A stretch of 39,172 bases of DNA from a virus. Below, one piece after another: positions 11,007 to 31,020 of the stretch. Each line of letters begins with the position of its first letter. Position 1 is the first letter of the stretch. The position numbers and the translations under genes were made by a program. Where the stretch lies: positions 1-39,172 of the IMG/VR virus record IMGVR_UViG_3300024980_000004; one strand, written 5' to 3'. Under the pieces are notes generated by a model. The model made no database searches. It had not been told where the DNA came from and saw nothing but the letters and a program-made list of their open reading frames with translations.

Positions 11007-11049
11007 AGTGTAAAACTATCGCCATAGCAATCAGTTTAAAGCGCTTTAA
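11007..11049 (-). promoter_or_regulatory. Late promoter for the tail operon (palindrome + 23 + TACACT)
   Basis: The perfect 14-base palindrome TTAAAGCGCTTTAA lies at 11036-11049. Exactly 23 bases downstream on the minus strand is TACACT (11012-11007), followed by 7 bases and the ATG at 10999. Three other sites share this exact geometry. There is no -35 box, which fits an activator-dependent promoter. Confidence 0.75.
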
Positions 11050-11078
11050 GCGTTGGAGCGGGCGAGGGAGTTGAGGAT

Positions 11079-11336
11079 TTACTTTAACTGTTTTTGCAGG
11101 GTTTTGATTTTAAACTCGTAATCAAGCGCGCGGTCGATCAGTTGTTTGATGGCGTGGATACTGAGCATGTAGCGGTCTGGTTGGGTGCCGTGCAGTAAAT
11201 CTGCAGCAAGATGGGCGATGCTGAAAAAGATCATTTTAATGTCGGATTCGAGCAAACGGATGGCGCGCTCGATGTTGGCATCTTCACCCCCTTTATCAAA
11301 GGGGGCTGGAGGGGGATTGTCAGTAGCCACCGCCAT
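11079..11336 (-). CDS. Small helical protein with an in-frame repeat element
   Basis: The frame is open from 11396, but the upstream part overlaps the DUF1320-like gene by 77 bases. The ATG at 11336 gives 85 residues and a 17-base overlap, though its ribosome site is poor. Residues ~8-17 (NPPPAPFDKGG) come from a repeat inserted in frame. The rest is helical (IERAIRLLESDIKMIFFSIA ... KQLIDRALDYEFKIKTLQKQLK) and looks like a small coiled-coil protein. I do not recognise a family. The real start is uncertain and the gene may have been altered by the insertion. Confidence 0.5.
   Translation of the reverse strand: MAVATDNPPPAPFDKGGEDANIERAIRLLESDIKMIFFSIAHLAADLLHGTQPDRYMLSIHAIKQLIDRALDYEFKIKTLQKQLK
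11287..11318. repeat. Palindromic CCCCTTTATCAAAGGGG repeat element
   Basis: The sequence has CCCCCTTTATCAAAGGGGG at its core, flanked by GCTGGAGGGGGATT. This is the type of dispersed bacterial repeat that, read through, encodes NPPPAPFDKGG. Here it lies inside a small reading frame and keeps it open. It could also act as a hairpin terminator between the DUF1320-like gene and the tail operon. Confidence 0.65.
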
Positions 11337-11733
11337 CCCTGCCAAATATAGGAGTAACTGAAACAAACTCGACGCTGTCATTGGGGCTGGTAGCAATGGT
11401 ACCGGTCACGTCCGGCCCTATGCTGATCTGGCCTTTGGCGACCTGGCTTAAGTACTTTATCGCTTGGTCATAACGGGTTTGTACCTGCTCAGTAACAGCA
11501 TCATCGTATAAATAGTATCGCGCTACATCACAACCAATACGCACCAGGTTGGCAGGTACGGACACTAACGGCAGGTAGGCGGTTAAATAGCCGTTGATTT
11601 CTGCCGTGGCGTCAGCGATAGCTTGATCGAGCACGGTGTAATCAATGCTGCCGATATTGTTGCGGTCGGTTAGCTGGATAAGCTCGGCTGCGCTGAAGCG
11701 GTCGGTTAAATCCAGCGCAGTGCAGTAGGGCAT
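11320..11733 (-). CDS. DUF1320 (Mu gp36-like) head-completion protein
   Basis: The 137-residue protein opens MPYCTALDLTDRFSAAELIQ and continues with a pattern of helices typical of DUF1320/Mu gp36 (DQAIADATAEINGYLTAYLPL ... RIGCDVARYYLYDDA). This is the adaptor or head-tail connector of Mu-like phages. A ribosome site (AGGTGA) precedes the ATG. It follows the SGNH gene with 1 base between, so the insertion of that large gene did not break the operon. Confidence 0.85.
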   Translation of the reverse strand: MPYCTALDLTDRFSAAELIQLTDRNNIGSIDYTVLDQAIADATAEINGYLTAYLPLVSVPANLVRIGCDVARYYLYDDAVTEQVQTRYDQAIKYLSQVAKGQISIGPDVTGTIATSPNDSVEFVSVTPIFGRDGGGY

Positions 11734-11734
11734 A

Positions 11735-13912
11735 TCAATTCACCTTTACACACTGCATCAATAAAATTTCAAAAGATGGGCCTGGCGCTGCACTTGCCAT
11801 TGTCGGCATGCTGAAACCCGCTCGTATCTCTCTTAGTATCTCCGCATCACCCAGGCTAAATACTGCCGATTCATATAAAAACACATCGCCAACTGCTAGA
11901 GCTGGCTGCAATGTCTCTATATCAAACGAGCTATGCAATTGGTTAATCCGGAATTGCTTAGTATTAGTATGGTCAGCTTTTTGTATTGATACCGCATTGC
12001 CATTGCAAATACCGTGGGCATTAGTCGGGTCAATCACTCTAACTTTAATGTAGATTTTAAACAGCCCAGTCTCGTTACCTGTGAATGGGATGGTGTTGTT
12101 ATATGGGGCTACGTACTGCCCTTTATCTGTAATAGCGCCGATTTGATTGGTATAAACATTACTACCAGCGTTTGAGATTGGGAATATTGCGCCATCAATT
12201 GATTTAATAACAGTTCCAGCTGATAGATTGGTACCCCCGCCATTGACATCTTTAATCGCGTGAATTGCCTTAATGCCACTTGAGCCAGCAGGGAAGCCTT
12301 TACTCAATAACGGGTTGGGTGCAAACGTCTTGCCACTAGCAGTTGAGTATGGATTGGTAGGTATCGATGCTTTTGTAGCAAATAGATAACCCAGTTGGTT
12401 TAAAAACAGTTTAGCTTCTAAAAGCATACCCGTTGCGTTGGGATGTATATTGCCCAATGTATTAGGATCACCTGGGATACCGGACGCATCATAAGCATCT
12501 CTGTAATAAAGCGGGTTGGCTCTAAATAGCCGTCTATTACCATAAAATAACGAGCTACCACTGTCTTCAATAATGACGCTTGGCTCTGAGTAGCTCAAAC
12601 ACCAGTCGCTGATAATATTGGCCTGTACTAACGGATTAGCTGCGGCAAACATAGTTTTGCTGGCATTATCAGTCGGGCCGATATTAGATAGGACAATAAC
12701 AATGTTAGGCCAACGCGACTTAAGAATTCGGATTATCTCCTTAGCATTGTTAATACTTTTATAGCCGTCTAATCCGCCATAACTATAGCCGTCAATGACT
12801 TGTATTGTGTCATTTGTATGCACTACATCATTTTCAAAAATATCTGATAAATAAAAAATATCCGGCGTATCTATAAACCTATCCAACAGCCCATGTCGCA
12901 GTCTGTAAAGAAACTGATCTGTAAATCCTCCGTCAGTACCGTAACATCCGTAATCATCTAATGTTTCTGGGCTACCGTTCACACTATTTTGGTCGTCATA
13001 GCAAAACCAAGGGGTTAGCGAGCGCCACTTTAACGGCGTATCAGCAGGTACCTCATTTAACGAGCTGGTAGCTTCGCAGTTGTAATACCCAGTAACTGAG
13101 CCAGCGACAGTTTCAACAACCGCCGTATCATTTTTAACAAAAAACTGCCCAACTGTTGAATTTGGCGAACCGATAGAAGTCCAGTTAACACCAGTGCCAG
13201 CAGTTAATATTCGGTATGTTTTACCTGCTACAAGATTGGTAGTAGCAACAGTATTTTTTACCTTGTCGCCATACCCATAAGTTTTAATTGATGACCAATC
13301 ACCGCTATAAGCATCGGCATTTCCGAAGCCATTGTATGGAGCACCTGAATCTGTATGTTTAACAAAATTACCTAGTGTTCTGCATCGTTCAAACCCTCCC
13401 TCGGTTAGTGCGAATAGTTGGTTTATAAAGCCATCAGCTGCAAACGCCCTTGGAACCCAATACTCATAGAGTGATTGGGCTGATATTGAGCAGCCCATTG
13501 ATGCTAGTTTGGGTCGGCGACCTTTCCAGGGAAGATCTACCCCATTGATTTTCGTACTGCCCCTAGCATTTGTAAAATTAACCGATTGAGATGCAGCGGA
13601 ATAATTGTAATCCCGGTCAAACGACTTAACGGCTACGCTATGCTCGCCTGCAGATAGCCCGACCAGCGATATTGACGTGGTTGGACTCGTGGCAGTCGGT
13701 GTAGCACTATCATCCAAAAACGCCGCATATCCCACTACCCCCACTGCATCAGTAGAGGCCGATACAGTTATCGTTGCCCCATTATCAGTAATATTGCTGA
13801 TCACCGGCACACCGGGTGCAGTGGGTGCCGTGGTATCAGCAGCACGCGGGTTGGTTACCGCGGGCAAGGGCTGCCCCGACAACTTTGAGAATATGCGGCT
13901 TTTGCTGACCAT
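11735..13912 (-). CDS. SGNH-hydrolase-like protein with N-terminal FnIII-like domain
   Basis: At 725 residues this is unusually large for the head module. Residues ~28-112 form a fibronectin-III-like domain (DTTAPTAPGVPVISNITDNG). SGNH-type blocks follow: LASMGCSISAQSLYEYW (block I with the serine), DIFYLSDIFENDV (Asn block), IVIVLSNIGP, and GNIHPNATG (His block with N in place of D). A segment around residues 200-285 (GYGDKVKNTV ... VAGKTYRI) interrupts the fold and looks like a binding insert. Such enzymes deacetylate or de-esterify surface polysaccharides. A good ribosome site (GGAG) precedes the ATG at 13912. It may be a tail-spike or decoration enzyme; the location in the virion is inferred. 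Confidence 0.72.
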   Translation of the reverse strand: MVSKSRIFSKLSGQPLPAVTNPRAADTTAPTAPGVPVISNITDNGATITVSASTDAVGVVGYAAFLDDSATPTATSPTTSISLVGLSAGEHSVAVKSFDRDYNYSAASQSVNFTNARGSTKINGVDLPWKGRRPKLASMGCSISAQSLYEYWVPRAFAADGFINQLFALTEGGFERCRTLGNFVKHTDSGAPYNGFGNADAYSGDWSSIKTYGYGDKVKNTVATTNLVAGKTYRILTAGTGVNWTSIGSPNSTVGQFFVKNDTAVVETVAGSVTGYYNCEATSSLNEVPADTPLKWRSLTPWFCYDDQNSVNGSPETLDDYGCYGTDGGFTDQFLYRLRHGLLDRFIDTPDIFYLSDIFENDVVHTNDTIQVIDGYSYGGLDGYKSINNAKEIIRILKSRWPNIVIVLSNIGPTDNASKTMFAAANPLVQANIISDWCLSYSEPSVIIEDSGSSLFYGNRRLFRANPLYYRDAYDASGIPGDPNTLGNIHPNATGMLLEAKLFLNQLGYLFATKASIPTNPYSTASGKTFAPNPLLSKGFPAGSSGIKAIHAIKDVNGGGTNLSAGTVIKSIDGAIFPISNAGSNVYTNQIGAITDKGQYVAPYNNTIPFTGNETGLFKIYIKVRVIDPTNAHGICNGNAVSIQKADHTNTKQFRINQLHSSFDIETLQPALAVGDVFLYESAVFSLGDAEILREIRAGFSMPTMASAAPGPSFEILLMQCVKVN

Positions 13913-13915
13913 TTG

Positions 13916-14389
13916 TTACTCCGTTACGTCGCTAACTGTTGATTTAACCGACTTCTTTTTTACAGTTGGCTTGTCATTCGAAATTGCCTGGGCTTCCTGA
14001 ACATCCTGGACATCCTGAACATCCTGAACATCCTGAACATCCTGAACATCCTGAACATCCTGGACATCCTGGACATCCTGGACATCCTGAACACCCTGAA
14101 CATCCTGGACATCCTGGACATCCTGAACACCCTGAACATCCTGAACATCCTGAACATCCTGAACATCCTGAACATCCTGAACATCCTGAACATCCTGGAC
14201 ATCCTGGACATCCTGGACATCTTCCAACCATTCCGCCGGTTCAATCGCCCCCAACGCGATCAATTCATCGGCATCATCAATATCGATGTCATCGACCGTA
14301 ATCAATGCATTGACAGCCAGGGCATAGCCATCATGCTTGATAGGGTCGATAACCCGGTATCCCGTTACTTTAATAGTCGTACCGGGCAT
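13916..14389 (-). CDS. DUF7210/gp35-like small protein with a DVQ tandem-repeat domain
   Basis: Residues 1-55 (TIKVTGYRVIDPIKHDGYAL ... ELIALGAIEPAEW) match the small proteins that follow the major capsid gene in Mu-like phages (FluMu gp35/DUF7210-like pattern). Residues ~57-133 are a nearly pure Val-Gln-Asp triplet repeat with two Gly substitutions. The C-terminus is Lys/Ser-rich. The repeat would give a highly acidic, extended surface. Its function is unknown; being next to the capsid gene, it may be a capsid fibre or decoration. The start lies next to the capsid stop. Confidence 0.8.
   Translation of the reverse strand: MPGTTIKVTGYRVIDPIKHDGYALAVNALITVDDIDIDDADELIALGAIEPAEWLEDVQDVQDVQDVQDVQDVQDVQDVQDVQDVQGVQDVQDVQDVQGVQDVQDVQDVQDVQDVQDVQDVQDVQDVQDVQEAQAISNDKPTVKKKSVKSTVSDVTE
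14002..14217. repeat. Tandem repeat, 24 perfect-length units of 9 bp (CATCCTGRA)
   Basis: I count 24 consecutive 9-base units: mostly CATCCTGAA, nine CATCCTGGA, and two CACCCTGAA (units 11 and 15). Because 9 is a multiple of 3, copy-number change keeps the gene in frame. The interspersion of variants suggests repeated slippage or unequal exchange. Confidence 0.97.
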
Positions 14390-14390
14390 C

Positions 14391-15356
14391 TTAAGCGACC
14401 GCCGCGCTGATTAAATAGCCCGCCTCAGCACCTGCAATAACTGGTGCAACTTCATCGATAATGGGAAAAATCCATGAGCGGGTATTCTTTTCATAGTACG
14501 GCTGATCGGCCACCGGGTAATTACGCAGTCGGTAGGTATAGCCATAACTGGGCGTACCTCTTGCCGCCAATGTAGCGGTGCGGGTATAGGCGACTACGAC
14601 ATTTTTACCCCACACATCGACATTGGTATCTGAGCCATCAAGGGCAATGGCATCACCGACCAAAAATGTCTCGACATCAAAAATAGCCGCCATTTGCTCT
14701 TTGGTTAATCGCGGCTGGCTATTGCCACCGACGATGGAGATAACGCCGTTTAAAATCGCGGCATCAACCAGTTTAGGGTGGCGTTTTAAAATCTTCCAGA
14801 CCTTGGGGCCGACTACGACAGTATTGGGCCGCTGGCCAGTAGTCGCTCGAATCGCTTCAATCGCGGCATCGACATCGCCGATCGGGTCGGAGTTGGTATA
14901 GTCAGACCATTGACTGGTACCGGATAGCGTCACCTTATTACCGACCGGGTAATTGGCCGCAGTAGTGGCTAAGGTGGCCTGTTCGATTTCCAAGCGTAAA
15001 TCGATAATGTCCTTAGTTGTCAGCACTGTGGTGCTGCTCATATCAATACCCGGCACGACATTGGCTTCTTCATCGATTTCAACCGGCAATACACCTTCCA
15101 GTGCTTGCTGGGTCAGCGAAAATTTACCACCTGAAAAACCTACGTTGATACGGCTGATATTACTGCCCGGTGAGCGAGCCAGGTTATATTGGCGCCAAGC
15201 GCTTTTATCAAACGTGATAATGGTGCCGCCGCGGGCGCCGACGACCACTGGCGGAAATAACGCCATACCAACAAACGAGTCATTGCGGTAACCGCGCGCA
15301 ACGGTGCTTAAAACAGGATCGACAACGCGTGCAGCGCCGGGGGTAAGTTGTGGCAT
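14391..15356 (-). CDS. Major capsid protein
   Basis: The 321-residue protein is a HK97-fold-type major capsid protein: an N-terminal region (PVLSTVARGYRNDSFVGMALFPPV), a long central helix region (LRLEIEQATLATTAANYPVG), QRPNTVVVGPKVWKILKRHP, and the C-terminal PYYEKNTRSWIFPIIDEVAPV. It is the 'phage capsid E-like' variety found in B3-like transposable phages rather than a close Mu T homologue. A good ribosome site (GGAG) precedes the ATG. It follows the protease/scaffold and decoration genes in the standard order. Confidence 0.92.
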   Translation of the reverse strand: MPQLTPGAARVVDPVLSTVARGYRNDSFVGMALFPPVVVGARGGTIITFDKSAWRQYNLARSPGSNISRINVGFSGGKFSLTQQALEGVLPVEIDEEANVVPGIDMSSTTVLTTKDIIDLRLEIEQATLATTAANYPVGNKVTLSGTSQWSDYTNSDPIGDVDAAIEAIRATTGQRPNTVVVGPKVWKILKRHPKLVDAAILNGVISIVGGNSQPRLTKEQMAAIFDVETFLVGDAIALDGSDTNVDVWGKNVVVAYTRTATLAARGTPSYGYTYRLRNYPVADQPYYEKNTRSWIFPIIDEVAPVIAGAEAGYLISAAVA

Positions 15357-15366
15357 GTTTAACTCC

Positions 15367-15711
15367 TTAGTTTTGGATCAAAATAACTTCGACAAATTGT
15401 CCAGCCGCCGAGGCGACTTCGCCCGGTGCCAACCTGCCTAACGTGACGCCTGCCGATTTGGTTACCGCTCGGCCAGAGGCATCAGCCTCGACCAGGGCAT
15501 TGGCAGCGATAGCTGCCCCTGCCTCAACAACTGCAGAGCCCATAATATCAACCGAGACGAGGTCGCCCGATACTCCGGCAGTGCGGGTTACGCCCAAAGC
15601 ATTACCAGCTGCACCCGCTTGCGCGCCCAACCCGGTAACGAAGCGATTGGCAACAACAGTGGCGGTCAACCGTAGCGAGCGGGCAAATAAAGAAGTGGAT
15701 TGTCTACTCAT
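15367..15711 (-). CDS. Capsid decoration protein (DUF2190-like)
   Basis: The 114-residue protein is Ala/Val/Gly-rich beta sequence (LRLTATVVANRFVTGLGAQA ... APGEVASAAGQFVEVILIQ), the pattern of DUF2190-type cement or decoration proteins. These sit between the protease/scaffold and the major capsid gene. It probably binds the outer capsid surface. A good ribosome site (AGGAG) precedes the ATG. Confidence 0.83.
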   Translation of the reverse strand: MSRQSTSLFARSLRLTATVVANRFVTGLGAQAGAAGNALGVTRTAGVSGDLVSVDIMGSAVVEAGAAIAANALVEADASGRAVTKSAGVTLGRLAPGEVASAAGQFVEVILIQN

Positions 15712-15722
15712 AAAAGCTCCTG

Positions 15723-16205
15723 TTATTTAGAGACCGCATGCAATGCGGTTTGGTAGTCGGTTTGATGCGCGGCCTGGTAAGCGAGTGCCGCGTTATGTGT
15801 TTTTAATGCGCCTACATCAACAGACAGCCCGTCTGGGGCGGAAAAATTGACGGTGTGCACATCTTCAGTATTGCCTGCCGCTAACTCGTTAAACTCAATC
15901 CGCTTAGGCAATTTGGCAATTAATGCCTTAGCGCTATCCAATAGCGGCTTTTTAACATCGCCATCGCTAAACTCAACAACATCTTCTGGGGCTGCTACAA
16001 AATCCAGCAAGGCAACTGCTCCCTCTTTTTCAGTAGGTAACAAAGTGCCCGCCTTGATAAGGCTCTCGGCAAATGCGACATGGTCGCTGTGTTTTGCCGC
16101 GGCGCTGGCATTCTTCTGCACTTCGGCAAAATCCGCTTGCTGCTTTTTTAACGCATTATTTTCCGCCTCCAGCTCGATGAGCCTGGCTTTATCTTCTACA
16201 GACAT
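15723..16205 (-). CDS. Nested scaffold protein (gpZ-like internal start)
   Basis: An in-frame ATG at codon 212 of the protease gene (16205) is preceded by GGAG with a 5-base spacing. It gives a 160-residue protein starting MSVEDKARLIELEAENNALK. It contains only the coiled-coil scaffold half, exactly the arrangement of Mu Z inside Mu I. The scaffold would be made in excess over the full protease and cleaved during maturation. The internal start is inferred from the ribosome site and family precedent. Confidence 0.72.
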   Translation of the reverse strand: MSVEDKARLIELEAENNALKKQQADFAEVQKNASAAAKHSDHVAFAESLIKAGTLLPTEKEGAVALLDFVAAPEDVVEFSDGDVKKPLLDSAKALIAKLPKRIEFNELAAGNTEDVHTVNFSAPDGLSVDVGALKTHNAALAYQAAHQTDYQTALHAVSK

Positions 16206-16838
16206 ACTGTCTCCGGGGTTAAGTTCTTGGTAAGAGGGGGATGATGTATCGGCGGCTTCTTCGCGCAATTCATCCTGCGCGGATTGCTCCAGCTGTTGCA
16301 CGGCGCTTTGAGGGATAGTTTGATCGGCTTCTTCCAGGCTAAATTTGGTGATAAAAAACTCACGTAAATTGCGCCATAGACTGGCATTTTGCACATCGTC
16401 GTATTCGTTAAAATCGACAATGCCTTGCTCGTTATCTGCAAAAGACGGATTGCGCATGCCTTTTACAGCAGGCGGTTGCGCCCCTAAAAATCCGACATGA
16501 CGCAAATAAAACACGCCGGGTACCGGATTGCTTGGCGAGTCTGGCGAGTAAAACGAGGCACTGATTTTTTTAAATGCGCCGCTGGCGACCAGCTCGGCAA
16601 AATCGGGATTGACTTGAATGGGGTCAGCTTCCAGCGTGTTACCAGCAAAGCTTAAGGCTTTAATCCAGCCATAAGCAGGGCCGTCGGCTTTGGGATGGCC
16701 CACAACAATCGGTGCTTCATGTAGCGCCGGATCGTAAGCCGCCGCTGAAGCCAGCAAGTCAGTTTCAGAAAAGCTCAGCGTGGCACCATTCATGGCAGTG
16801 TGCTGGCCGGTTTTGAATATTTGGAGTTTTTTTGTCAT
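15723..16838 (-). CDS. Mu gpI-like capsid maturation protease with scaffold domain
   Basis: The 371-residue protein has the Mu I protease region in residues ~1-135 (APIVVGHPKADGPAYGWIKA ... KKISASFYSPDSPSNPVPG, then RHVGFLGAQPPAVKGM). A linker and a coiled-coil scaffold region follow from ~210 (ARLIELEAENNALKKQQADF). Protease and scaffold are the two functions of Mu I and Z. The ATG is at 16838, with no ribosome site. The predicted late promoter puts its -10 element at 16845-16850, so transcription may start at the ATG itself. It heads the head-protein transcription unit. Confidence 0.9.
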   Translation of the reverse strand: MTKKLQIFKTGQHTAMNGATLSFSETDLLASAAAYDPALHEAPIVVGHPKADGPAYGWIKALSFAGNTLEADPIQVNPDFAELVASGAFKKISASFYSPDSPSNPVPGVFYLRHVGFLGAQPPAVKGMRNPSFADNEQGIVDFNEYDDVQNASLWRNLREFFITKFSLEEADQTIPQSAVQQLEQSAQDELREEAADTSSPSYQELNPGDSMSVEDKARLIELEAENNALKKQQADFAEVQKNASAAAKHSDHVAFAESLIKAGTLLPTEKEGAVALLDFVAAPEDVVEFSDGDVKKPLLDSAKALIAKLPKRIEFNELAAGNTEDVHTVNFSAPDGLSVDVGALKTHNAALAYQAAHQTDYQTALHAVSK

Positions 16839-16844
16839 GGCTGC

Positions 16845-16887
16845 AGTTTATGCAACCAGGGTGGGAGTTTGGTTTAAAGCGCTTTAA
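16845..16887 (-). promoter_or_regulatory. Late promoter for the protease/capsid operon (palindrome + 23 + TAAACT)
   Basis: The perfect palindrome TTAAAGCGCTTTAA at 16874-16887 is followed by 23 bases and TAAACT (16850-16845), then 6 bases and the ATG at 16838. This is the same geometry as the promoter at 11007-11049. It is the positional counterpart of the Mu late promoter ahead of gene I. Confidence 0.78.
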
Positions 16888-16905
16888 GGTTTGTGAAGGA
16901 TGACA

Positions 16906-16933
16906 ACCATTGGGAGGATGTCCTCGCAATGGT
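16906..16933. terminator. Hairpin between lipoprotein and protease genes
   Basis: ACCATTG pairs with CAATGGT and GAGGA with TCCTC inside it, with one mismatch between the stems and a tight loop. There is no T-run, so it is not a textbook terminator. Lying downstream of the lipoprotein gene and upstream of the late promoter, it may stop read-through into the late unit. Confidence 0.5.
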
Positions 16934-16944
16934 CTTAGATCTGC

Positions 16945-16975: not shown

Positions 16976-16988
16976 AAATAGAATAGTT

Positions 16989-17681: not shown

Positions 17682-17698
17682 AGTTTCCTCTAGTGTTT

Positions 17699-18028: not shown

Positions 18029-18060
18029 TACTATTTCCTCTACTTTTAATGACAATGTAG

Positions 18061-18166: not shown

Positions 18167-18718
18167 TTAATCAAATAGCCCTTGTTGGCCGTCATTGTTG
18201 TATTTTTTATGCATCTCATCGGTAATACAGACTAAAACCCCTGGGAAGGTTTTGCATAAAAAAATGGATACTCGATTGGCTAGGTCTTTAGCAACAGACT
18301 CATTTAATCCGCACAATACTAATTCCGCGGGTAAAAAATCCTCGATCACAAATACTGTCACGGGCTTTTTACTGGCTTGCTCGGGCGGCAGTGGAAACAT
18401 ATCATGCTGCACTTTGCGTACCGAGGCTTTGCGCTGGCGTTTAATGATCGAGTAAATTTGCATAGTGCTGAGCGCGTGCTTAATCCCCAAATCGGCATGA
18501 TTAGTGCCGTTAAATTCCCGCCAGATTGCATCGTCGCGTTGCTGGCAGTTGTTTTTGTAGCCGCTGGGTATGTACATGGAGCCGCCGCGAAAATTTAGCC
18601 AAATACAGTCAGACAACGCCCTTACACAGGCCAATGCGGTTTTTTCGCCGCGTTCAGCAACTACAGCATGGTATATAAATTCCTCCATTGCATGTAATAC
18701 CTGCTCGCCGGTAATCAT
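18167..18718 (-). CDS. mor: Mor-family transcription activator
   Basis: The protein has 183 residues from the ATG at 18718, which overlaps the GemA stop (ATGA). The Mor domain is clear: FRGGSMYIPSGYKNNCQQRD (the beta-hairpin segment of the dimerisation region), then AIWREFNGTNHADLGIKHAL and STMQIYSIIKRQRK, the helix-turn-helix. Mor binds a dyad just upstream of RNA polymerase at promoters that lack a -35 box. Unlike Mu Mor (about 129 residues), this one has an extra C-terminal part of about 70 residues (VTVFVIEDFLPAELVLCG...). It ends the early operon. It is the natural candidate to bind the TTAAAG-SS-CTTTAA palindromes. Confidence 0.88.
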   Translation of the reverse strand: MITGEQVLHAMEEFIYHAVVAERGEKTALACVRALSDCIWLNFRGGSMYIPSGYKNNCQQRDDAIWREFNGTNHADLGIKHALSTMQIYSIIKRQRKASVRKVQHDMFPLPPEQASKKPVTVFVIEDFLPAELVLCGLNESVAKDLANRVSIFLCKTFPGVLVCITDEMHKKYNNDGQQGLFD

Positions 18719-19176
18719 CTTGCCACCCACTTTTTCAGCTGCTCAATCAAGCGCTGTTTTTGGTAGCCGTTTAGCCACTGCAACGCCTCGATACCGTCGG
18801 TGGTTTTAAACTGGCTTTTTGCAAAGTTAACCAAGGCGCGCTCACTGGGGTCATTTACCTTGCCTAAGCCGTGCAGCTCCAGCCACAAGCCTCTAATCAT
18901 TTTGCACTGATCATCATCGGCTTGTGGGCGGGTGCCCGCTTGCTTAGGTGGCTTTACTTTAAAGCCCAGCTTGCCCATGCGCTTAAGGACGTTTTCCAGC
19001 TCCCAGCCTTTTAACAGCGCTGCAGAGCGATGGCCTGCCTTGTTTTCTGACTGCAGCAAGTCGCGGTAGGTATCATCATCCAGCCCCAATTGCTTTTGCG
19101 CAATTTTCACTTTTTGCACCAGTTTTTTGCAATGTGCAATCTGTATAGCGGTACGTTGCTGCAAGTCAGTAGTCAT
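18715..19176 (-). CDS. gemA: GemA-family regulatory protein (DUF1018)
   Basis: The 153-residue protein has the GemA/DUF1018 pattern: an N-terminal helix (IAHCKKLVQKVKIAQKQLGL), then DDTYRDLLQSENKAGHRSAA, and a C-terminal module (MIRGLWLELHGLGKVNDPSE ... ALQWLNGYQKQRLIEQLKKW). In Mu GemA affects host gene expression and DNA topology. It lies directly before mor, as in Mu, with ATGA coupling. The ribosome site is GGGAG. Confidence 0.9.
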   Translation of the reverse strand: MTTDLQQRTAIQIAHCKKLVQKVKIAQKQLGLDDDTYRDLLQSENKAGHRSAALLKGWELENVLKRMGKLGFKVKPPKQAGTRPQADDDQCKMIRGLWLELHGLGKVNDPSERALVNFAKSQFKTTDGIEALQWLNGYQKQRLIEQLKKWVAR

Positions 19177-25323: not shown

Positions 25324-25325
25324 TA

Positions 25326-25694
25326 CTACTTCCTAGTCATACGGTCAAAAGCACGATTAACATCAGCTTCACTTGTGCCACCAAACAGTCTTTTTCTGCT
25401 CTCGGCAACTTGTTGTTCGGCAGCCTCAAGTGATCGCATGATCTGTACGGCGGCCCTTGCTAACTGGTGGCTAGGCCGAATCCGTCCTGTTTCTTGAATG
25501 CGCTCAGCAAAGCCTGCTGTGACCAGCGTGCCGACATAGCGGGTAATATCACTGGCACCAAAGCCGGTTTCCTTAACTAACTCAGTCGGGCTAAAGCCAT
25601 GGGCGAAGTTACGAAGTAACACATCTAACACCGCAAGCACCTTGCCTGCGCTTTTGGTATCTTGGGTTTTGCCGGGTTGTTTAGTGGTTGTCAT
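25326..25694 (-). CDS. IclR/MarR-like winged-helix protein
   Basis: The 122-residue protein has a winged helix at residues ~15-70 (KVLAVLDVLLRNFAHGFSPT, then ELVKETGFGASDITRYVGTLV), followed by a helical tail. IclR-type small proteins of this kind are common upstream of transposase genes in B3-like phages. The ATG at 25694 overlaps the stop of the 35-residue gene. Confidence 0.8.
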   Translation of the reverse strand: MTTTKQPGKTQDTKSAGKVLAVLDVLLRNFAHGFSPTELVKETGFGASDITRYVGTLVTAGFAERIQETGRIRPSHQLARAAVQIMRSLEAAEQQVAESRKRLFGGTSEADVNRAFDRMTRK

Positions 25695-25801
25695 TATTTG
25701 TCCACCTTATATTTGATAACCACAAGGCCCGTAGCGTGGTCAGTCACGACAAACCTAACTAACTGAGCATCTGGTTTAGGTTTAGATTTAGTTTTTTTCA
25801 T
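25694..25801 (-). CDS. Small basic protein (35 aa)
   Basis: The gene reads MKKTKSKPKPDAQLVRFVVT... with a ribosome site (AGGAGT) in front and a TAATG overlap with the next gene. It starts 5 bases after the upstream gene's stop. The basic N-terminus followed by a short beta-like segment suggests a nucleic-acid-associated peptide. It fills an otherwise empty gap in a tightly packed operon. Confidence 0.75.
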   Translation of the reverse strand: MKKTKSKPKPDAQLVRFVVTDHATGLVVIKYKVDK

Positions 25802-25806
25802 TGCTA

Positions 25807-26280
25807 TTACTCCTCATCAAAAGGCAGCTCAGGCTGCCGGTATTTTTCGATATTGCCCCGGTGCCAGCTGGTATGCTCCAGGGACGTTTGTATGGCTGCC
25901 AGAGCGGCATCTACGTCGCTCAACTCGCTGTAAAAGCGCATGACCTCGCCCACCATTTGATGTGAGGCCACCTGCAATACCTGTACATCTACAGGGCCGC
26001 ACTTTTTGCCACGCGGTACGTCGATAATGATTTTTCCGTTACTTTCAACCAGCCAGCGGCTGACGTAATCAATACCGCAGGCATGCTCAAAACTTTTGAT
26101 GTACTTTGTGGGCATGTCGGCTTCATCAATCCACTTATAAACCGTCCACTTCTTATGCCCCATCAAGTCGGCGACATTGTCGATTGACCGGTTGTACTGC
26201 TCTTTGGCAAACCGCACATCCCACTGGAAAGCATCCCGCAAATCTAATGGCCTAACCGCCTTCCAATTCCTTGCCCTCAT
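25807..26280 (-). CDS. Early regulatory protein, HTH-like (157 aa)
   Basis: The open frame reaches 26337, but the ATG at 26280 has a better ribosome site (GGGGTG) and the sequence from there looks coding (MRARNWKAVRPLDLRDAFQW). A helix-turn-helix-like stretch follows (SIDNVADLMGHKKWTVYKWI), then helical sequence and a C-terminus PELPFDEE. It looks like a phage regulator of the CII/Cox size class. I cannot name the family. Confidence 0.7.
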   Translation of the reverse strand: MRARNWKAVRPLDLRDAFQWDVRFAKEQYNRSIDNVADLMGHKKWTVYKWIDEADMPTKYIKSFEHACGIDYVSRWLVESNGKIIIDVPRGKKCGPVDVQVLQVASHQMVGEVMRFYSELSDVDAALAAIQTSLEHTSWHRGNIEKYRQPELPFDEE

Positions 26281-26322
26281 TGGACACCCCTGTTTTTTAA
26301 TGCATGCAAACAAATAAACGTT

Positions 26323-26351
26323 TTGCATATTGTGCAAAGCTGTTTTACATT
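26323..26351 (+). promoter_or_regulatory. Candidate sigma70 promoter for rightward small genes, with TTGCA/TGCAA palindrome
   Basis: TTGCAT (26323-26328) and TACATT (26346-26351) are separated by 17 bases. The -35 region also forms an inverted repeat, TTGCA-5-TGCAA (26323-26337). It points at the open frame starting at 26392 and opposes the early operon. Confidence 0.5.
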
Positions 26352-26391
26352 GCCAAAATAAGCCCGACTTAAATCAACTCGGGAAAACACC

Positions 26392-26643
26392 ATGAACACA
26401 CAATATGAAGAGCTCAGCGGACGTATAGAGGGGCTGGCTGACTTTGTCCTGGCCTTAACAGCTACGCTGGAGATAGACAATCTGATTAATGGCGAATTGC
26501 TCACTGAGCGTATCCATCAGTCGGCACAGTTGCGGACAATTCCTGATCGACCCGATTGCACAAAAGCTGCTCGCCAAATGCTGCTTGGGATGGCGACCCA
26601 GCTTGAGAGCATGAGATCGGCACGCCAATTAATGGGCTGTTAA
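26392..26643 (+). CDS. Small rightward protein antisense to the early operon (83 aa)
   Basis: The sequence (MNTQYEELSGRIEGLADFVL ... LLTERIHQSAQLRTIPDRPD) has normal protein composition and a helical pattern. A sigma70-like promoter lies upstream at 26323-26351. The ribosome site is weak. It lies in a gap of the leftward early operon and is antisense to a possible small minus-strand gene. Its pattern (charged start, 'E-x2-R-x5-L-x8-L') resembles that of the next rightward frame at 26717. Confidence 0.55.
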   Translation: MNTQYEELSGRIEGLADFVLALTATLEIDNLINGELLTERIHQSAQLRTIPDRPDCTKAARQMLLGMATQLESMRSARQLMGC

Positions 26644-26674
26644 GGTCGAAACCGAATTCGCTGTAGTTAGACAT
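26501..26674 (-). CDS. Possible small minus-strand gene (57 aa)
   Basis: An ATG at 26674 with a good ribosome site (GGGAG, 6 bases) starts MSNYSEFGFDLNSPLIGVPI. The first 10 codons are outside the rightward gene; the rest is antisense to it. The C-terminal half may be a shadow of the plus-strand gene. Kept only because of the ribosome site. Confidence 0.3.
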   Translation of the reverse strand: MSNYSEFGFDLNSPLIGVPISCSQAGSPSQAAFGEQLLCNRVDQELSATVPTDGYAQ

Positions 26675-26687
26675 GACAGGCTCCCAA

Positions 26688-27116
26688 TTAACGTTTAACA
26701 AAATGCGTAGCTGAAAATGACCGAACAAACTCTAACCACTGAAGAGCGATTTGACGTACTTGAAACTGTATTGCAGACGCTGTTGTTGGGTGCCTTACAG
26801 GATAAACCGGACATTCAGCGACAACTGGCTGAGCATCTGAACACAGCGATAGAAGCTTCTCAGCGGCACCAGACCCGGCCTGCGCATGTACTGCATGAAC
26901 TACAACGCTACGCAGATGCTCTGGTAATGCTTGATAGTGTTGCGGCGCCGCTACGACCGTTTCTACGGCCTTAATAAGGGCGAGTTTTTTCTTTAGTCTG
27001 CGTTGGTCTATTAAGGCGTTATAAACATCCAGCACGCTAATGTTATGAGCCTTAGCAAGATCATGATGGTTATAGCCATTAAATTCGGCATAGACGGCGG
27101 TATTATTAATTGCCAT
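26688..27116 (-). CDS. Early DNA-binding-like protein (142 aa)
   Basis: A strong ribosome site (GGAGATCGCC) precedes the ATG at 27116. Residues 1-55 (EFNGYNHHDLAKAHNISVLD, then VYNALIDQRRLKKKLALIKA) resemble the C-terminal helix-turn-helix of Mor-type activators (compare AIWREFNGTNHADLGIKHAL in the mor gene here). From about residue 58 the frame is antisense to the rightward gene 26717-26974 and looks less like protein. The gene may have been shortened or extended by overlap. Confidence 0.65.
   Translation of the reverse strand: MAINNTAVYAEFNGYNHHDLAKAHNISVLDVYNALIDQRRLKKKLALIKAVETVVAAPQHYQALPEHLRSVVVHAVHAQAGSGAAEKLLSLCSDAQPVVAECPVYPVRHPTTASAIQFQVRQIALQWLEFVRSFSATHFVKR
26717..26974 (+). CDS. 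Small rightward protein, antisense partner (85 aa)
   Basis: The translation (MTEQTLTTEERFDVLETVLQ ... RQLAEHLNTAIEASQRHQTR) looks like an authentic helical acidic protein. There is no good ribosome site and no clear promoter of its own; it may follow the rightward gene at 26392. It converges with the leftward gene whose 3' part it overlaps. Which of the two frames is real in the overlap cannot be decided from sequence alone. Confidence 0.5.
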   Translation: MTEQTLTTEERFDVLETVLQTLLLGALQDKPDIQRQLAEHLNTAIEASQRHQTRPAHVLHELQRYADALVMLDSVAAPLRPFLRP

Positions 27117-27125
27117 GGCGATCTC

Positions 27126-27641
27126 CTAATGCAGTAAGCCAAGCTGATGGCAGCGGCGGCGGTTGGCGGTAATGGTGGATAGACTACGATGACCGGTTTT
27201 AGCAGCGATAGCAGCGCGGGATTCACCGTCTTCGGTGCCTTGTGCGACGACTAGCAAATGGGGACGCAAGATAGATAGCGCATTGGCTTCGCGCTTAGTT
27301 TTTGCCTTTAAAGCGGTTTCCATGTTGCGGAAGTCGGTTAAGAAATCGATCTTCCATTGCAGGGCTTGTTTGCCGGTGAAGCCCATGGCTAGGATGGCAA
27401 AACCATCATGGGTGATTTTGTACATAGGCAGTGTTCTTCTGGTCGAATCTTGGTATGAGCTGAGCTGAAAATTCAGCTCAGCAAACTCTTTATCAGGGCA
27501 ATCGGAGAGCAACTTTTCAATGGACTGCAAAACGTTTTTATGTTGCTTTTGAAAATGCTCAGCCACTTTTAATGAGGTAGTAAAGGTATGACTATCAACT
27601 ACATCGACAAGCAGGGTTTCTGGGAAAAGGTCTTTGTTCAT
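27126..27641 (-). CDS. Rha-family phage regulatory protein
   Basis: The 171-residue protein carries the Rha domain: TTSLKVAEHFQKQHKNVLQS, then FAELNFQLSSYQDSTRRTLP and MYKITHDGFAILAMGFTGKQ with ALQWKIDFLTDFRNME. Rha proteins regulate lysogenic or lytic development in lambdoid phages; here the gene is second in the leftward early operon. The C-terminal part has another helix-turn-helix-like segment (AAIAAKTGHRSLSTITANRR). The ribosome site GGAG is good. Confidence 0.9.
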   Translation of the reverse strand: MNKDLFPETLLVDVVDSHTFTTSLKVAEHFQKQHKNVLQSIEKLLSDCPDKEFAELNFQLSSYQDSTRRTLPMYKITHDGFAILAMGFTGKQALQWKIDFLTDFRNMETALKAKTKREANALSILRPHLLVVAQGTEDGESRAAIAAKTGHRSLSTITANRRRCHQLGLLH

Positions 27642-27650
27642 AACGGGCTC

Positions 27651-27833
27651 CTAAGCAGCTTCTGATTTAAGGCCAAGCTTTACAGCAATTTCATGGCCTT
27701 TGCCAAAGCGGGCTTTGTTTTGGCCATTGATAACGCGGTAAACCTCCCAACGTTGATAGCCGTGGTTTTTAGCCCAGTCAGCGACGGTTTCCCCGCGTTG
27801 TTGGAATTGTTGTTTAAGTTTTTCAGGGGTCAT
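27651..27833 (-). CDS. Ner/Cro-like DNA-binding protein (60 aa)
   Basis: This 60-residue first gene of the early operon is a single helix-turn-helix domain (EKLKQQFQQRGETVADWAKN, then HGYQRWEVYRVINGQNKARF). It has the size and position of Mu Ner, which turns down both the repressor and early promoters after induction. It probably binds in the 27834-27902 interval. The ribosome site is GGAGAT. Confidence 0.85.
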   Translation of the reverse strand: MTPEKLKQQFQQRGETVADWAKNHGYQRWEVYRVINGQNKARFGKGHEIAVKLGLKSEAA

Positions 27834-27880
27834 GGAATATCTCCGTTGTGATGTGTTTTAAACGTGCTCTAGTGGTATTT

Positions 27881-27909
27881 AATATATTCCACCATTTGGT
27901 GGATGTCAA
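27881..27909 (-). promoter_or_regulatory. Early lytic promoter, TTGACA-17-TATATT
   Basis: On the minus strand TTGACA (27909-27904) is separated by exactly 17 bases from TATATT (27886-27881), a near-consensus sigma70 promoter. It drives the Ner-like gene 48 bases downstream. Its spacer is filled by the operator palindrome at 27889-27902. Confidence 0.88.
27889..27902. promoter_or_regulatory. Operator palindrome CCACCATTTGGTGG
   Basis: This inverted repeat (6-base arms, 2-base centre) lies wholly inside the early-promoter spacer, so a bound repressor or Ner dimer would block RNA polymerase. A half-site pair (GTGG at 27872, CCAC at 27889) overlaps the -10 element. No second full copy is seen nearby. 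Confidence 0.75.
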
Positions 27910-28709
27910 ACAATTGGTGTTTTTTAATGGAAATAAATAGAGCAGAAATTGCAATCAGGATTGTGGAAGAGCGCGCAAAGCTAGGATTTAGCCAGCGCGA
28001 CTTTGCTAACCAACTGTTGGTTAGTGGCGAAACAGTTAGAAGATATGAGATTGGTGAAAGAGAAATGGGCGTTGAGTTTTTGGCTCGTGCGGCGGCTCTA
28101 GGTGTTGATGTGCAATATGTATTGACTGGAGTAGCTTCGAAAAATAAGGCTGAGGTAGAAGCTGCAATACAGCCATCAATGGCAATCAACGGCAGTACGA
28201 ATGTAATTGGTATTGTTCAGAATGGTGCAACAGTTAATCAGATTAAAACTGATAGGCATGTGACTACGATTAAAGCTGAGGTTAAGCCAGGGGATGAGCA
28301 TATAACCCAAGCGCAAGCCGCAAAGTTAACAGCGATAGTTAATGAAATTGTTGTATTGGAAGCTAAGTTAAAACAGCAGCCAAAATCACATCGTTCCGTT
28401 TGGGGAACTCTGAATGCACATATGGGAGTTACCCGTTATTTACTGATTCCGGCAATAGGCTTTGAAAAAGCCGAAAAGTATTTAAGGCAATGGATGGGGC
28501 GATTAAATTCAATGTCATCTGCACCAATAAAAGATGGCGATGCTTGGCGTAAGCGCAAATATGCTTATATCAAGATCAATTCAAAAGATGATCCAGATTC
28601 TGTTGATAAATACATCGCTAAGAATTTCAGCGCATCTAGTCTTTCAGATTTATCCAATGATGAATTGGATAAGGTATATCGATACGTTGCTGCAAAAAAA
28701 AGAAAATGA
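27903..28709 (+). CDS. Phage repressor (HTH_3)
   Basis: The 268-residue protein has an N-terminal Cro/cI-type helix-turn-helix (SQRDFANQLLVSGETVRRYE). The middle (NVIGIVQNGATVNQIKTDRH) lacks the LexA-type Ser/Lys protease pattern, so SOS self-cleavage is not supported. An ORF6C-like C-terminal half follows (HRSVWGTLNAHMGVTRYLLI) with a basic tail (KVYRYVAAKKRK). The frame starts at 27903 inside the early promoter's -35 region; the ATG at 27927 (MEINRAEIAI) is a likely alternative. It is divergent from the early operon and should maintain lysogeny. Confidence 0.9.
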   Translation: MSNNWCFLMEINRAEIAIRIVEERAKLGFSQRDFANQLLVSGETVRRYEIGEREMGVEFLARAAALGVDVQYVLTGVASKNKAEVEAAIQPSMAINGSTNVIGIVQNGATVNQIKTDRHVTTIKAEVKPGDEHITQAQAAKLTAIVNEIVVLEAKLKQQPKSHRSVWGTLNAHMGVTRYLLIPAIGFEKAEKYLRQWMGRLNSMSSAPIKDGDAWRKRKYAYIKINSKDDPDSVDKYIAKNFSASSLSDLSNDELDKVYRYVAAKKRK

Positions 28710-28825
28710 TTTTAAAAAGTCTGCTCTGTCGCCTATTCAAACACCAATGGCAATTCAGACTAAAAAGCCTGGAAGGTCATAAGGTATTTATATGCAAGCG
28801 GTGCGGTAAGGAACTAATAATTTAA
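28706..28825 (+). CDS. Small DUF1660-like zinc-finger protein (39 aa)
   Basis: The gene starts on the repressor stop (ATGA overlap) and reads MILKSLLCRLFKHQWQFRLK..., ending FICKRCGKELII. The pattern C-x4-H-W-type start followed by CxxC is that of small prophage proteins such as DUF1660. Likely zinc ligands are C8, H13, C30 and C33. Being coupled to the repressor, it would be made in the lysogen. Function unknown. Confidence 0.78.
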   Translation: MILKSLLCRLFKHQWQFRLKSLEGHKVFICKRCGKELII

Positions 28826-28835
28826 GGAGTTATGA

Positions 28836-29201
28836 GTGGATAACAGAGTAGTTGGTAAGTGGGAAATTTTAGCTGCACTTATTTTTGTAGTATTTATGAT
28901 CTATAGATCTGCAAATGATTATACCGCCCAACCTAAATCAAGTAATGACTGGAATTATGCATTGCTATTGTGTCAACAGGTACTTGCAAATGCATCACGT
29001 GATCCAGGTTCAGCTAGCATCCCTTATGTTCCGAATGCAGGATCTGGCAATCAATACTATTTTGCCTGGGGGAATAGCACAACACATGCCCATATGAAAA
29101 ATGGGCTGGGCATAGATGTGCCAGTTTCGGCATCCTGTTTTGTGGATGGGAATACCAACAGAATTACTGGGCTAACTCTAAATGGGGAAACACTTATTTA
29201 G
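28836..29201 (+). CDS. Membrane-anchored prophage protein (121 aa)
   Basis: The start is a GTG at 28836 with AAGGAG 6 bases before it. An N-terminal membrane span (KWEILAALIFVVFMIYRSAN) is followed by an outside domain with two Cys (LLLCQQVLANASRDPGSASI; SASCFVDGNTNRITGLTLNG). It follows the repressor and the zinc-finger gene and is probably expressed in the lysogen. It could be a superinfection-exclusion or other lysogenic-conversion protein. This is a position-based guess. Confidence 0.75.
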   Translation: MDNRVVGKWEILAALIFVVFMIYRSANDYTAQPKSSNDWNYALLLCQQVLANASRDPGSASIPYVPNAGSGNQYYFAWGNSTTHAHMKNGLGIDVPVSASCFVDGNTNRITGLTLNGETLI

Positions 29202-29244
29202 ATAGGCAGTCAAAGCTAGAATTGCGTGAAGAAAAAAAGAGGGC

Positions 29245-29316
29245 CGTAGGATGGGTAGAGCATCGCGAAACCCATCATTATCAGCATGGGTTTCACTGCG
29301 TTCTACCCATCCTACG
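29245..29316. repeat. REP-like 72-bp palindrome, bidirectional hairpin
   Basis: CGTAGGATGGGTAGA and TCTACCCATCCTACG form the outer stem, and inside it AAACCCAT pairs with ATGGGTTT. It is a full copy of the repeat whose half occurs at 16945. It lies between convergent genes (28836 rightward and 29371 leftward), so it can terminate both. The rest of 29202-29370 shows no gene. Confidence 0.85.
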
Positions 29317-29370
29317 AGCTACGAGCTATACAATAAACGCATAGCCTCACTCAGATTAAAGACTGAATAG

Positions 29371-29634
29371 TTACTTAATTTTTTCTTCGGTCAATCTAAT
29401 TGATTGCTCAACTCGGTATTTGGCACGCTTAAAACTTTCCTTGCTGCAATTTAAATCAAAATCTTCATCTCGCATAAAATCACATGCCTCCCGCAAGCCA
29501 GTTATTAATGCATTTAATAGCAACACTATCATTGCTAATGGCAATAAAAAAATATGTGCTATTAACCAAATAAAATAGTTACTAACGGTTAACAAAACTA
29601 ATAATTTAAGTGGGTTTATAAATTTTATTGTCAT
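29371..29634 (-). CDS. Small membrane protein of the lysis operon (87 aa)
   Basis: The frame is open to 29736, but the ATG at 29634 overlaps the stop of the upstream 65-residue gene (ATGA) and gives 87 residues. Two close hydrophobic stretches (LKLLVLLTVSNYFIWLIAHI and FLLPLAMIVLLLNALI) are followed by a charged tail (EESFKRAKYRVEQSI-like). As the last gene of a lysozyme operon it might be a holin, antiholin or spanin component. That is inferred from position and membrane topology. Confidence 0.65.
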   Translation of the reverse strand: MTIKFINPLKLLVLLTVSNYFIWLIAHIFLLPLAMIVLLLNALITGLREACDFMRDEDFDLNCSKESFKRAKYRVEQSIRLTEEKIK

Positions 29635-29828
29635 CGTCTGTATGCCTCTGGTGGTGGTATGTCGCTGGCTGGCAAGCGCAGCATTTTGCGCCATACCTGG
29701 TTGAATTTGTGGTTGTCTGCCGCGACTGCCTGCCATTGCTGTTCGGTTCGGCCCCGGCTTAGGTAAAAGTTTTTAATTGCTTGGTAGCGTTTATGTGCTC
29801 GTAGCAGCTGGGCGCGTTGATCTGGCAT
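29631..29828 (-). CDS. Small basic protein next to lysozyme (65 aa)
   Basis: The 65-residue protein is helical and basic (RAQLLRAHKRYQAIKNFYLS, then TEQQWQAVAADNHKFNQVWR). It follows lysozyme with 5 bases between and overlaps the next gene. No signal or membrane segment is seen. Function unknown. Confidence 0.65.
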   Translation of the reverse strand: MPDQRAQLLRAHKRYQAIKNFYLSRGRTEQQWQAVAADNHKFNQVWRKMLRLPASDIPPPEAYRR

Positions 29829-29833
29829 GGGTG

Positions 29834-30340
29834 TTACCAGTGCTCATACGTGCCCGATGTCCACAGGTTAAATTCACAGGCCCGGCGATTTATTAATCCC
29901 TGTATAAATTTACCGCGGCTTTTAGCCCATGCGCCCCAGGCTTTGCCTAATGTCGGGTATGGCGTTTTAGCCGCTGGGTTATTTATCAGTTTAACAATCG
30001 AGGACCCACGCAGGCCATTGATGCCGATGTTAAACGCCAATAAACACAGGGCATCAAATTGATGCTGTTGCAATGGTACGGTAATGCACTTTTTGATAGC
30101 GGCTTCAACCGGTTGCAAATCCTCACGAAATAATGCGGTAGCTTGCTGGTAACTGATGCCGTCTTGATACATCCACCAGTCGTTTTCTGCGATTAAATGC
30201 CCGCAGCCAATAGTTGCGCCGGTTACCCAGCGGTTGATAGTCAGGCCGGTTTGATCGTCGTAGGGATGCAGTTGCAGGGTTTCAATGTCGCTGAGCAGTT
30301 GCAGGCCTTTAGTGCTGATGGTTAGGGTATTATTGCTCAT
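29834..30340 (-). CDS. T4-type lysozyme (GH24 endolysin)
   Basis: The 168-residue protein has the GH24 active-site layout: E20 (SDIETLQLHPYDDQTG), D29, and T43 in ATIGCGH, followed by a helical C-terminal region typical of phage lysozymes (CLLAFNIGINGLRGSSIVKL). It cleaves the glycan backbone of peptidoglycan. The start overlaps the upstream gene's end. No signal or SAR segment is present, so it should depend on a holin; a GTA_holin_3TM-like gene is in the divergent operon. Confidence 0.93.
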   Translation of the reverse strand: MSNNTLTISTKGLQLLSDIETLQLHPYDDQTGLTINRWVTGATIGCGHLIAENDWWMYQDGISYQQATALFREDLQPVEAAIKKCITVPLQQHQFDALCLLAFNIGINGLRGSSIVKLINNPAAKTPYPTLGKAWGAWAKSRGKFIQGLINRRACEFNLWTSGTYEHW

Positions 30341-30923
30341 GGGCGTTCCGTTGGCTGCGTAGTTGTTGCGTTAGCTTGTTGACCTCATCACACCAATAAG
30401 GATCGCCGGTTTGGTCGGCCATTTTTTTGGCGTGGGCGAGATCTTGATTAAGCTTTTGCGTCGCTTGGGCGCGCTGGGCGGCTTGCTTTTGGGCTTGGTC
30501 GACGGGGGTTTCTTCTGTGTCTTGCCAGCGGCGTTCTGCTAGCCAGCCTTCGGCCATTTTGGCAACTTGGCCTTCTGGCAGGTTTTTACGGGCAGCTGCG
30601 GCACGTTTTGCGCCGGCAATTATTTTGTCGTATTCGGTTTTTGGTAATTCACCCAGTTGCAGCCAGCGCCCGGCCGCCCGGTCTTTGCTGGCTTTGTAGT
30701 CAAAGGCCAGCCAGAACAGGTCAAAGGCGGCTTTCATAGTCGGGTTAAGTTTGTCGTAGGCCTTGGTAATTTCATGCGGGCCGGTTTCTTTTAATGCGCC
30801 GTAGCCTTTTTCATCCAGCCGTTCCCATAGCTTTTCAGCATAGGCCAGGGTTTTATTAAGATCCCAATCCAACGCGGGCATAAACTGGATGCACGCCGCC
30901 TGAATAAATTCGCGTTTTTTCAT
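30330..30923 (-). CDS. Unknown phage protein heading the lysis operon (197 aa)
   Basis: The 197-residue protein is helical and charged. An N-terminal segment (REFIQAACIQFMPALDWDLN) is followed by KYDKIIAGAKRAAAARKNLP-like helix and GWLAERRWQDTEETP, a motif common near the C-termini of phage replication or regulatory proteins. A strong ribosome site (GGAGGG) precedes the ATG. The operon starts at a predicted late promoter (-10 at 30949-30954). I do not recognise the family. Confidence 0.65.
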   Translation of the reverse strand: MKKREFIQAACIQFMPALDWDLNKTLAYAEKLWERLDEKGYGALKETGPHEITKAYDKLNPTMKAAFDLFWLAFDYKASKDRAAGRWLQLGELPKTEYDKIIAGAKRAAAARKNLPEGQVAKMAEGWLAERRWQDTEETPVDQAQKQAAQRAQATQKLNQDLAHAKKMADQTGDPYWCDEVNKLTQQLRSQRNAHEQ

Positions 30924-30948
30924 TTTCTGCCCTCCTCAGTGCGGGGGC

Positions 30949-30991
30949 AGTATCTATTGATTAGTACCCCAATAAACTTAAAGCCCTTTAA
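30949..30991 (-). promoter_or_regulatory. Late promoter for the lysis operon (shared palindrome + 23 + GATACT)
   Basis: The palindrome at 30978-30991 (TTAAAGGGCTTTAA on this strand) is followed by exactly 23 bases and GATACT (30954-30949). The ATG of the first gene is at 30923 with a ribosome site, giving a leader of about 19 bases. It is analogous to the Mu lysis promoter. Confidence 0.72.
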
Positions 30992-31020
30992 AACTAAGGC
31001 GGTTAAGCAGTCGTCATACT
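30978..31020 (+). promoter_or_regulatory. Late promoter for the rightward operon (shared palindrome + 23 + CATACT)
   Basis: The same palindrome (TTAAAGCCCTTTAA, 30978-30991) is followed on the plus strand by 23 bases and CATACT (31015-31020). The first gene starts at 31051 behind GGAGG. One activator site thus serves two divergent promoters at equal spacing. Confidence 0.75.

Follow-up and report, generated by a model that had tools for sequence, protein, structure and literature searches.

Palindromes at a fixed 23-base distance from weak -10 hexamers as predicted Mor-dependent late promoters of a Mu-like phage

We found four candidate late promoters in a Mu-like transposable phage, each consisting of a short palindrome, exactly 23 bases and a weak hexamer of the form NANACT. 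Judging from their sequence and that of their relatives, we estimate a probability of about 0.87 that these units are late promoters fired by the phage's single Mor/C-family protein (18167-18730), which would replace the -35 box. The palindrome-23 rule is very probably a common switch for particle building and cell bursting. In Pasteurellaceae, the recognition helix type of Mor predicts whether such sites are present.

Palindromes, hexamers and late genes in the window

The window, i.e. the whole stretch of DNA that was analysed, is the 39,172-base IMG/VR record IMGVR_UViG_3300024980_000004. The palindrome TTAAAGSSCTTTAA (TTAAAG-SS-CTTTAA) occurs in it exactly three times, in the positions listed below. 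By dinucleotide shuffling 0.01 copies are expected, and none of 100 shuffles reached three. Four of the six outward readings from these palindromes arrive at NANACT at exactly 23 bases; over spacings of 0-59, NANACT occurs four times at 23 and at most once at any other value. The probability that four of six readings share one given spacing is ~2e-9, or ~6e-5 once generously corrected for the post hoc choice of spacing and hexamer. Three of the four readings are on the minus strand, and the palindrome at 30978 is used in both directions. No further good palindrome-23-NANACT site was found in the window.

The putative promoter elements, the first genes behind them and the proposed activator are as follows.

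11036-11049, minus strand: putative operator of the tail promoter (TTAAAGCGCTTTAA), exact palindrome
11007-11012, minus strand: putative -10 hexamer of the tail promoter (TACACT), 23 nt from its operator
10559-10999, minus strand: tail terminator, first gene of the tail unit (PF23840, 4e-17)
16874-16887, minus strand: putative operator of the head promoter (TTAAAGCGCTTTAA), exact palindrome, in the position of Mu PI
16845-16850, minus strand: putative -10 hexamer of the head promoter (TAAACT), 23 nt from its operator
15723-16838, minus strand: head maturation protease of the Mu gpI type, first gene of the head unit (phrog_976, 3.5e-119)
30978-30991, both directions: putative shared operator of the lysis/packaging promoters (TTAAAGCCCTTTAA), exact palindrome
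31015-31020, plus strand: putative -10 hexamer of the rightward promoter (CATACT), 23 nt from the 30978 operator
30949-30954, minus strand: putative -10 hexamer of the leftward promoter (GATACT), 23 nt from the 30978 operator
31048-31278, plus strand: small-protein gene, first of the rightward unit
31269-31676, plus strand: holin gene with three TM segments (PF11351)
32741-34842, plus strand: terminase (PHROGs)
29834-30923, minus strand: leftward unit, comprising a gene at 30330-30923 and then a phage lysozyme at 29834-30340 (PF00959, 4.1e-27)
27881-27909, minus strand: probable early promoter (TTGACA-17-TATATT, 11 of 12 consensus matches), a contrasting case with a -35 box
18167-18730, minus strand: Mor/C-family activator, proposed ligand of the operators (PF08765, 8.7e-20, 71.2 bits against a cut-off of 24.9)

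None of the four hexamers is preceded by a consensus -35 box (at most three of six matches) or carries an extended -10 TG. Ordinary sigma-70 promoters with a poor -35 were rejected as an explanation on these grounds. With the hexamer set at -12 to -7, the dyad falls at -49 to -36 and is centred at -42.5.

The early genes run leftward from ~27.8 kb on the minus strand (ner, A-type transposase, B-type ATPase and Gam), and are followed on the same strand by a GemA-type gene and then by the Mor/C-family activator. The minus strand also carries head and tail genes, namely the protease (15723-16838), the major head protein, the tail terminator and the tape measure. From 31 kb onward, the genes for lysis, terminase, portal and minor head proteins are read rightward, with portal, gpF-like and neck-like genes (PHROGs) following the terminase up to 39027. 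The late genes are therefore arranged in two divergent arms.

A sequence-only reading had previously proposed much of this arrangement. The three palindromes are exactly where it had placed them, and its fixed distance of 23 bases to a hexamer recurs in four readings, as NANACT. Its statements that a -35 box is lacking, that the dyad is centred near -42 and that identical spacing is unlikely by chance agree with our values, and all four sites do lie ahead of late genes (tail terminator, head protease, the small gene before the holin, and the lysozyme unit). It had named the four hexamers correctly; if TACACT and TAAACT were meant as plus-strand readings, that detail was wrong, since only CATACT is on the plus strand.

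Some other features of the genome are worth recording. A protein encoded at 13916-14389 (minus strand) consists mostly of short VQD repeats, which are encoded by a tandem DNA repeat. Its gene sits between that of the major head protein and that of a large protein (11735-13912), and the latter separates it from the head-tail adaptor. The overall gene order mirrors that of Pseudomonas phage Bise (L174). In the window the early genes lead into the head/tail arm, in Bise into the terminase/portal arm, a difference such as an inversion of the early module between both late arms would produce.

Relatives of the promoters and their link to Mor

We scanned 2.9 million viral contigs in IMG/VR for the palindrome plus ACT at a set distance. 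Of 57 matching stretches, 54 also have an A that was not part of the search pattern, giving ANACT at a spacing of 23; ANACT shifted by one base occurs at four loci each for spacings 22 and 24. Removal of near-duplicates left 25 distinct promoters, with T in the first place of the hexamer in 18 and the full hexamer TAAACT in 11. The first downstream genes encode a head protease, amidase, tail protein, baseplate wedge, tail terminator or tail fibre. The check that the sequence-only reading had proposed, a scan of relatives for the motif ahead of late genes, thus shows the spacing fixed at 23 in independent phages.

Three relatives (L008, L041, L054) retain the upstream flank, palindrome and 23-base register of site 11036, although the downstream gene has been exchanged. 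Given that the flank and palindrome are kept while the next gene differs, this promoter lies at a boundary of module exchange. Compared with window positions 10900-11150, the gene that follows the site in these relatives is a different one of tail-terminator type. Both sides of the divergent site 30978 are conserved in two relatives (L032 and L053), and a third (L014) also has a -10 hexamer on both sides of its divergent site.

The distance to the start codon gives additional information on the hexamer. In the window, the protease ATG begins exactly 6 nt after TAAACT and the tail terminator ATG 7 nt after TACACT, both without a Shine-Dalgarno sequence; the latter start is supported by a homologue (L017). 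An offset of 6 nt is the commonest among the distinct promoters (6/25) and occurs in four of five sites in Bise. If +1 is assumed to lie 7 bases after the hexamer, the protease and tail terminator mRNAs would begin at or one base before the AUG. Thus, the protease mRNA is predicted to be leaderless, and that of the tail terminator is probably leaderless or nearly so. An ATG at the position where +1 would fall supports the assignment of the hexamer as a -10 element. ATG offsets of 6-7 nt also recur in unrelated Mu-like phages.

A protease-centred search showed that the motif is absent from most protease relatives, at 38-62% identity. The sequence-only reading had considered that relatives with the same genes but lacking the motif would speak against it. 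Such relatives exist, but those whose Mor could be located carry a different type. The motif therefore tracks the activator and not the downstream gene. The palindrome is also absent from JBD25, MuM16-1 and Vibrio phage martha. Two of these that bear Mor, JBD25 (L170) and MuM16-1 (L172), have other repeated boxes before late genes, approximately TTTTCGCNCCTTCCAAAA and CCCGAAACCTTTCCAATCCGC, which are probably operators of other Mor helix classes. A pattern scan of genome contigs for the palindrome yielded mostly chance matches in AT-rich genomes, and several matches on one contig were seen only in Gallibacterium.

The Mor/C-family protein of the window also matches phrog_532 (late transcriptional activator), as well as the structures of Mu C (9l0x, 1.1e-9) and Mor (1rr7, 7.3e-8). 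Its PF08765 match spans positions 28-107 of the 107-position profile, and the first 27 positions, towards the N-terminal dimerisation part, are unrecognised. Its location is typical of the family: the GemA-type gene (phrog_286, 18715-19176) is followed by Mor (18167-18730) and then by the protease unit, so that Mor comes after gemA and ahead of late genes. It is the only full-length Mor/C-family member visible in the window, in agreement with the earlier remark that no C gene is visible. An AlphaFold2 model (pLDDT 49) was too poor for use. Searching with this Mor alone retrieved near-identical copies only, and an alignment of Mor proteins at large had too much diversity to be used for scanning.

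Two further observations concern proteins of this family. The window Mor (L146/L149) has an extra C-terminal domain of ~70 residues. In record G014, its closest distinct relative, the extension matches PF08765 positions 4-54 (E 6e-4), which suggests that the extension is a duplicated Mor N-domain, i.e. an N-domain, HTH, N-domain arrangement. A protein in the early region (26688-27116, minus strand) carries a Mor-type HTH on its own, with a match to PF08765 61-99 that is below the cut-off, and could compete for or fine-tune the same predicted operators.

We analysed the association with Mor in 121 Pasteurellaceae genomes that were chosen regardless of the motif. The strict pattern occurs six times, always at 0-14 kb downstream of a same-strand Mor gene, and its backward control gave no match. 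A relaxed pattern (TTAAA-N4-TTTAA, 23 bases, TANNCT) has 85 matches in the 121 genomes. Of these, 59 are no more than 45 kb from a strong Mor gene, although such neighbourhoods comprise only ~1.8% of the DNA; the backward control for this pattern gave ~53 matches by hand count. The relaxed sites recur ~0.1-1.5, 8-10, 13.5-14.5 and 20 kb after Mor. In the annotation of Pasteurella phage AFS-2018a, the lysis, protease, tail and baseplate units lie at these distances. We found 26 near-palindromes in the sense orientation in 20 Pasteurellaceae Mor regions, and 18 of the 26 have TA..CT at exactly 23. Each other spacing from 8 to 44 has none or one, leaving a single spike at 23, and no TA..CT was found at spacings 18-28 on the antisense strand of these regions.

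We then sorted 53 strong Mor genes by their DNA-recognition helix, where the QWxY class is defined as S-x-Q-[WCQ]-x-Y. Sites accompany 23 of 28 Mors in this class but only one of 25 in all other classes (Fisher p 4e-9), in a test made within one host family that leaves phage lineage, shared by the neighbouring GemA, uncontrolled. Since a single host family was used, base composition is controlled. Around five QWxY Mors no site was found within 45 kb; three of the five are near contig ends (classified by hand) and two are unexplained. The recognition helix of the window Mor, STMQIY, is a variant outside the strict QWxY class of Pasteurellaceae.

Proposed mechanism and alternative explanations

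We propose that a dimer of the Mor/C-family protein would bind the palindrome at -42.5, in place of a -35 box, and would contact and recruit the host sigma-70 RNA polymerase as Mor or C does. The polymerase would then start at the weak NANACT -10, with Mor compensating for this weakness. The 16874 operator would fire the head unit and the 11036 operator the tail unit. Because the 30978 operator is symmetric, one copy could serve two divergent units, one with the lysozyme and the other with the holin, terminase and portal genes, and the endolysin side would start together with the holin/terminase/portal side if one operator fires both. The sites, their fixed spacing, the late genes behind them, the association with Mor genes, the covariation with its recognition helix and the shared plan of the Mu late promoters are observed. 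That Mor binds and activates these sites, where and when transcription begins, and that 30978 really fires both ways are what we infer. The idea of the sequence-only reading, that a Mor-like activator at sites replacing the -35 turns on the split late modules together, is supported by the spacing, the late genes, the clustering with Mor and the helix class.

It is conceivable, although unlikely, that the operators are real late-promoter elements whose ligand is another protein, such as GemA (18715-19176), the HTH protein encoded at 26688-27116, or a host factor. GemA adjoins Mor in Mu-like phages, including the one in the window, and because of this adjacency and common inheritance, co-occurrence alone cannot separate the two. 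Moreover, a second Mor-HTH protein, with a weak match, is encoded in the early region, and the helix of the window Mor is outside the strict class. However, among phages of a single host family the sites follow the class of the Mor recognition helix, a pattern that a host factor would leave unaccounted for, and Mor and C are known activators of the -40 region, where the dyads lie at the same position. We regard it as very improbable that the palindromes are operators of a lysogeny or late repressor that silences late promoters. Such a role would suit perfect or near-perfect short palindromes, one of which lies between divergent units, but the hexamers are weak and have no -35, and they are therefore unlikely to fire unassisted. 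In addition, the whole dyad lies upstream of the -10, always by the same distance, as with class II activators, and the sites are ahead of late units only, with none near the early promoter at 27909.

Chance, base composition, or DNA repeats for packaging, transposition or uptake with no role in transcription are the least credible of these explanations, and we give them almost no weight. The palindrome ends are AT-rich and the hexamer was chosen after being seen. Against this, the number of palindromes expected in the window is only 0.01, the peak at exactly 23 is present in independent genomes according to the spacing controls, and the orientation ahead of late genes is fixed. We therefore favor firing by the Mor/C-family protein.

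Late-gene control in Mu-like phages other than Mu has so far rested on the annotation “Mor family”. With the rule of an operator, 23 bases and NANNCT, late promoters would become readable from the genomes of Mu-like phages and prophages that have the same type of Mor. The rule would also explain why late modules that are split or inverted can still share one timing: the activator sets the sequence of the promoter, and the promoter moves along with the boundary of its module. Given that solved Mu structures exist, these phages offer a ready system for studying how a Mor/C helix reads DNA, and one suited to asking whether a single class II site fires two ways.

Comparison with Mu and other known systems

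In Mu, a Mor dimer binds Pm at a 16-bp dyad whose two 5-bp inverted repeats flank a G/C-rich spacer of 6 bp; the dyad has its centre at -43.5 and takes the place of the -35 (PMC4390567, PMC4287176). The window sites have a dyad in nearly this position, which would likewise replace the -35. However, Pm is one middle promoter that makes C and does not belong to a set of late promoters, and its half-site sequence is different.

Mu C turns on four late promoters by binding next to the -35 (PMC4461284). In the Mu record, an ATAA half-site ends exactly 24 bases before a -10-like hexamer in all four, and the hexamers of Plys (TAGACT) and PI (CAAACT) are of the form NANACT. The palindrome of the window is absent from Mu positions 9000-36717. 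Like the C-dependent promoters (Plys, PI, PP and Pmom), the window sites precede several late units, including lysis and the counterpart of protease gene I, and their dyad overlaps the -35 region, with an unvarying distance to a -10 that departs from the consensus. The half-sites are TTAT/ATAA in Mu but TTAA(A)/(T)TTAA in the window, and the register is 24 nt in Mu but 23 in the window. Mu requires a cascade from Mor to C, whereas one full-length family member is visible in the window. Also, no divergent operator is shared among the four Mu late promoters, unlike in the window.

The window sites thus fall outside a narrow definition of Mu C sites (TTAT-N6-ATAA, 24 nt to the -10). They have the broader properties of Mu-type late promoters: they lack a -35 and have a non-consensus -10; their dyad, in the -40 region, keeps 23 nt to the -10 both in the window and in independent relatives; and they are ahead of units for lysis, the protease and the tail.

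Mu-like prophages of Pasteurellaceae and Pasteurella phage AFS-2018a have the same operator core and 23-nt register. Each has 3-4 sites, placed ahead of its lysis, protease, tail and baseplate units. They resemble the plan of the window, but their late units all run one way and the inner four bases of the operator vary. We found no published description of the palindrome or operator, including the Pasteurellaceae sites, in the open-access papers that were searched.

The BcepMu-like phages PhiKM and KP12, and Pseudomonas phages Bise and Komp_PAO1_1, have the variant dyads CTAAAGNNCTTTAA, TTAAACGCCTTTAA and TTAAACCCGATTAA, which are 23 nt from xAxxxT before late genes, often with an ATG 6 nt further on. 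Their half-sites are degenerate, however, and their Mor helices are unlike that of the window.

By their sequence, the operators described here appear to vary the Mu Mor/C late-promoter system, from which they differ in their half-site and in their register of 23 bases. Whether they represent a large class of Mu-like phages that dispense with the Mor-to-C cascade is a question on which we are evenly balanced. In such a class, one Mor-type activator would run the whole late program, the recognition helix would set the half-site, the register would be one bp off that of Mu, two divergent promoters per palindrome would be possible, and transcription would often start on the AUG.
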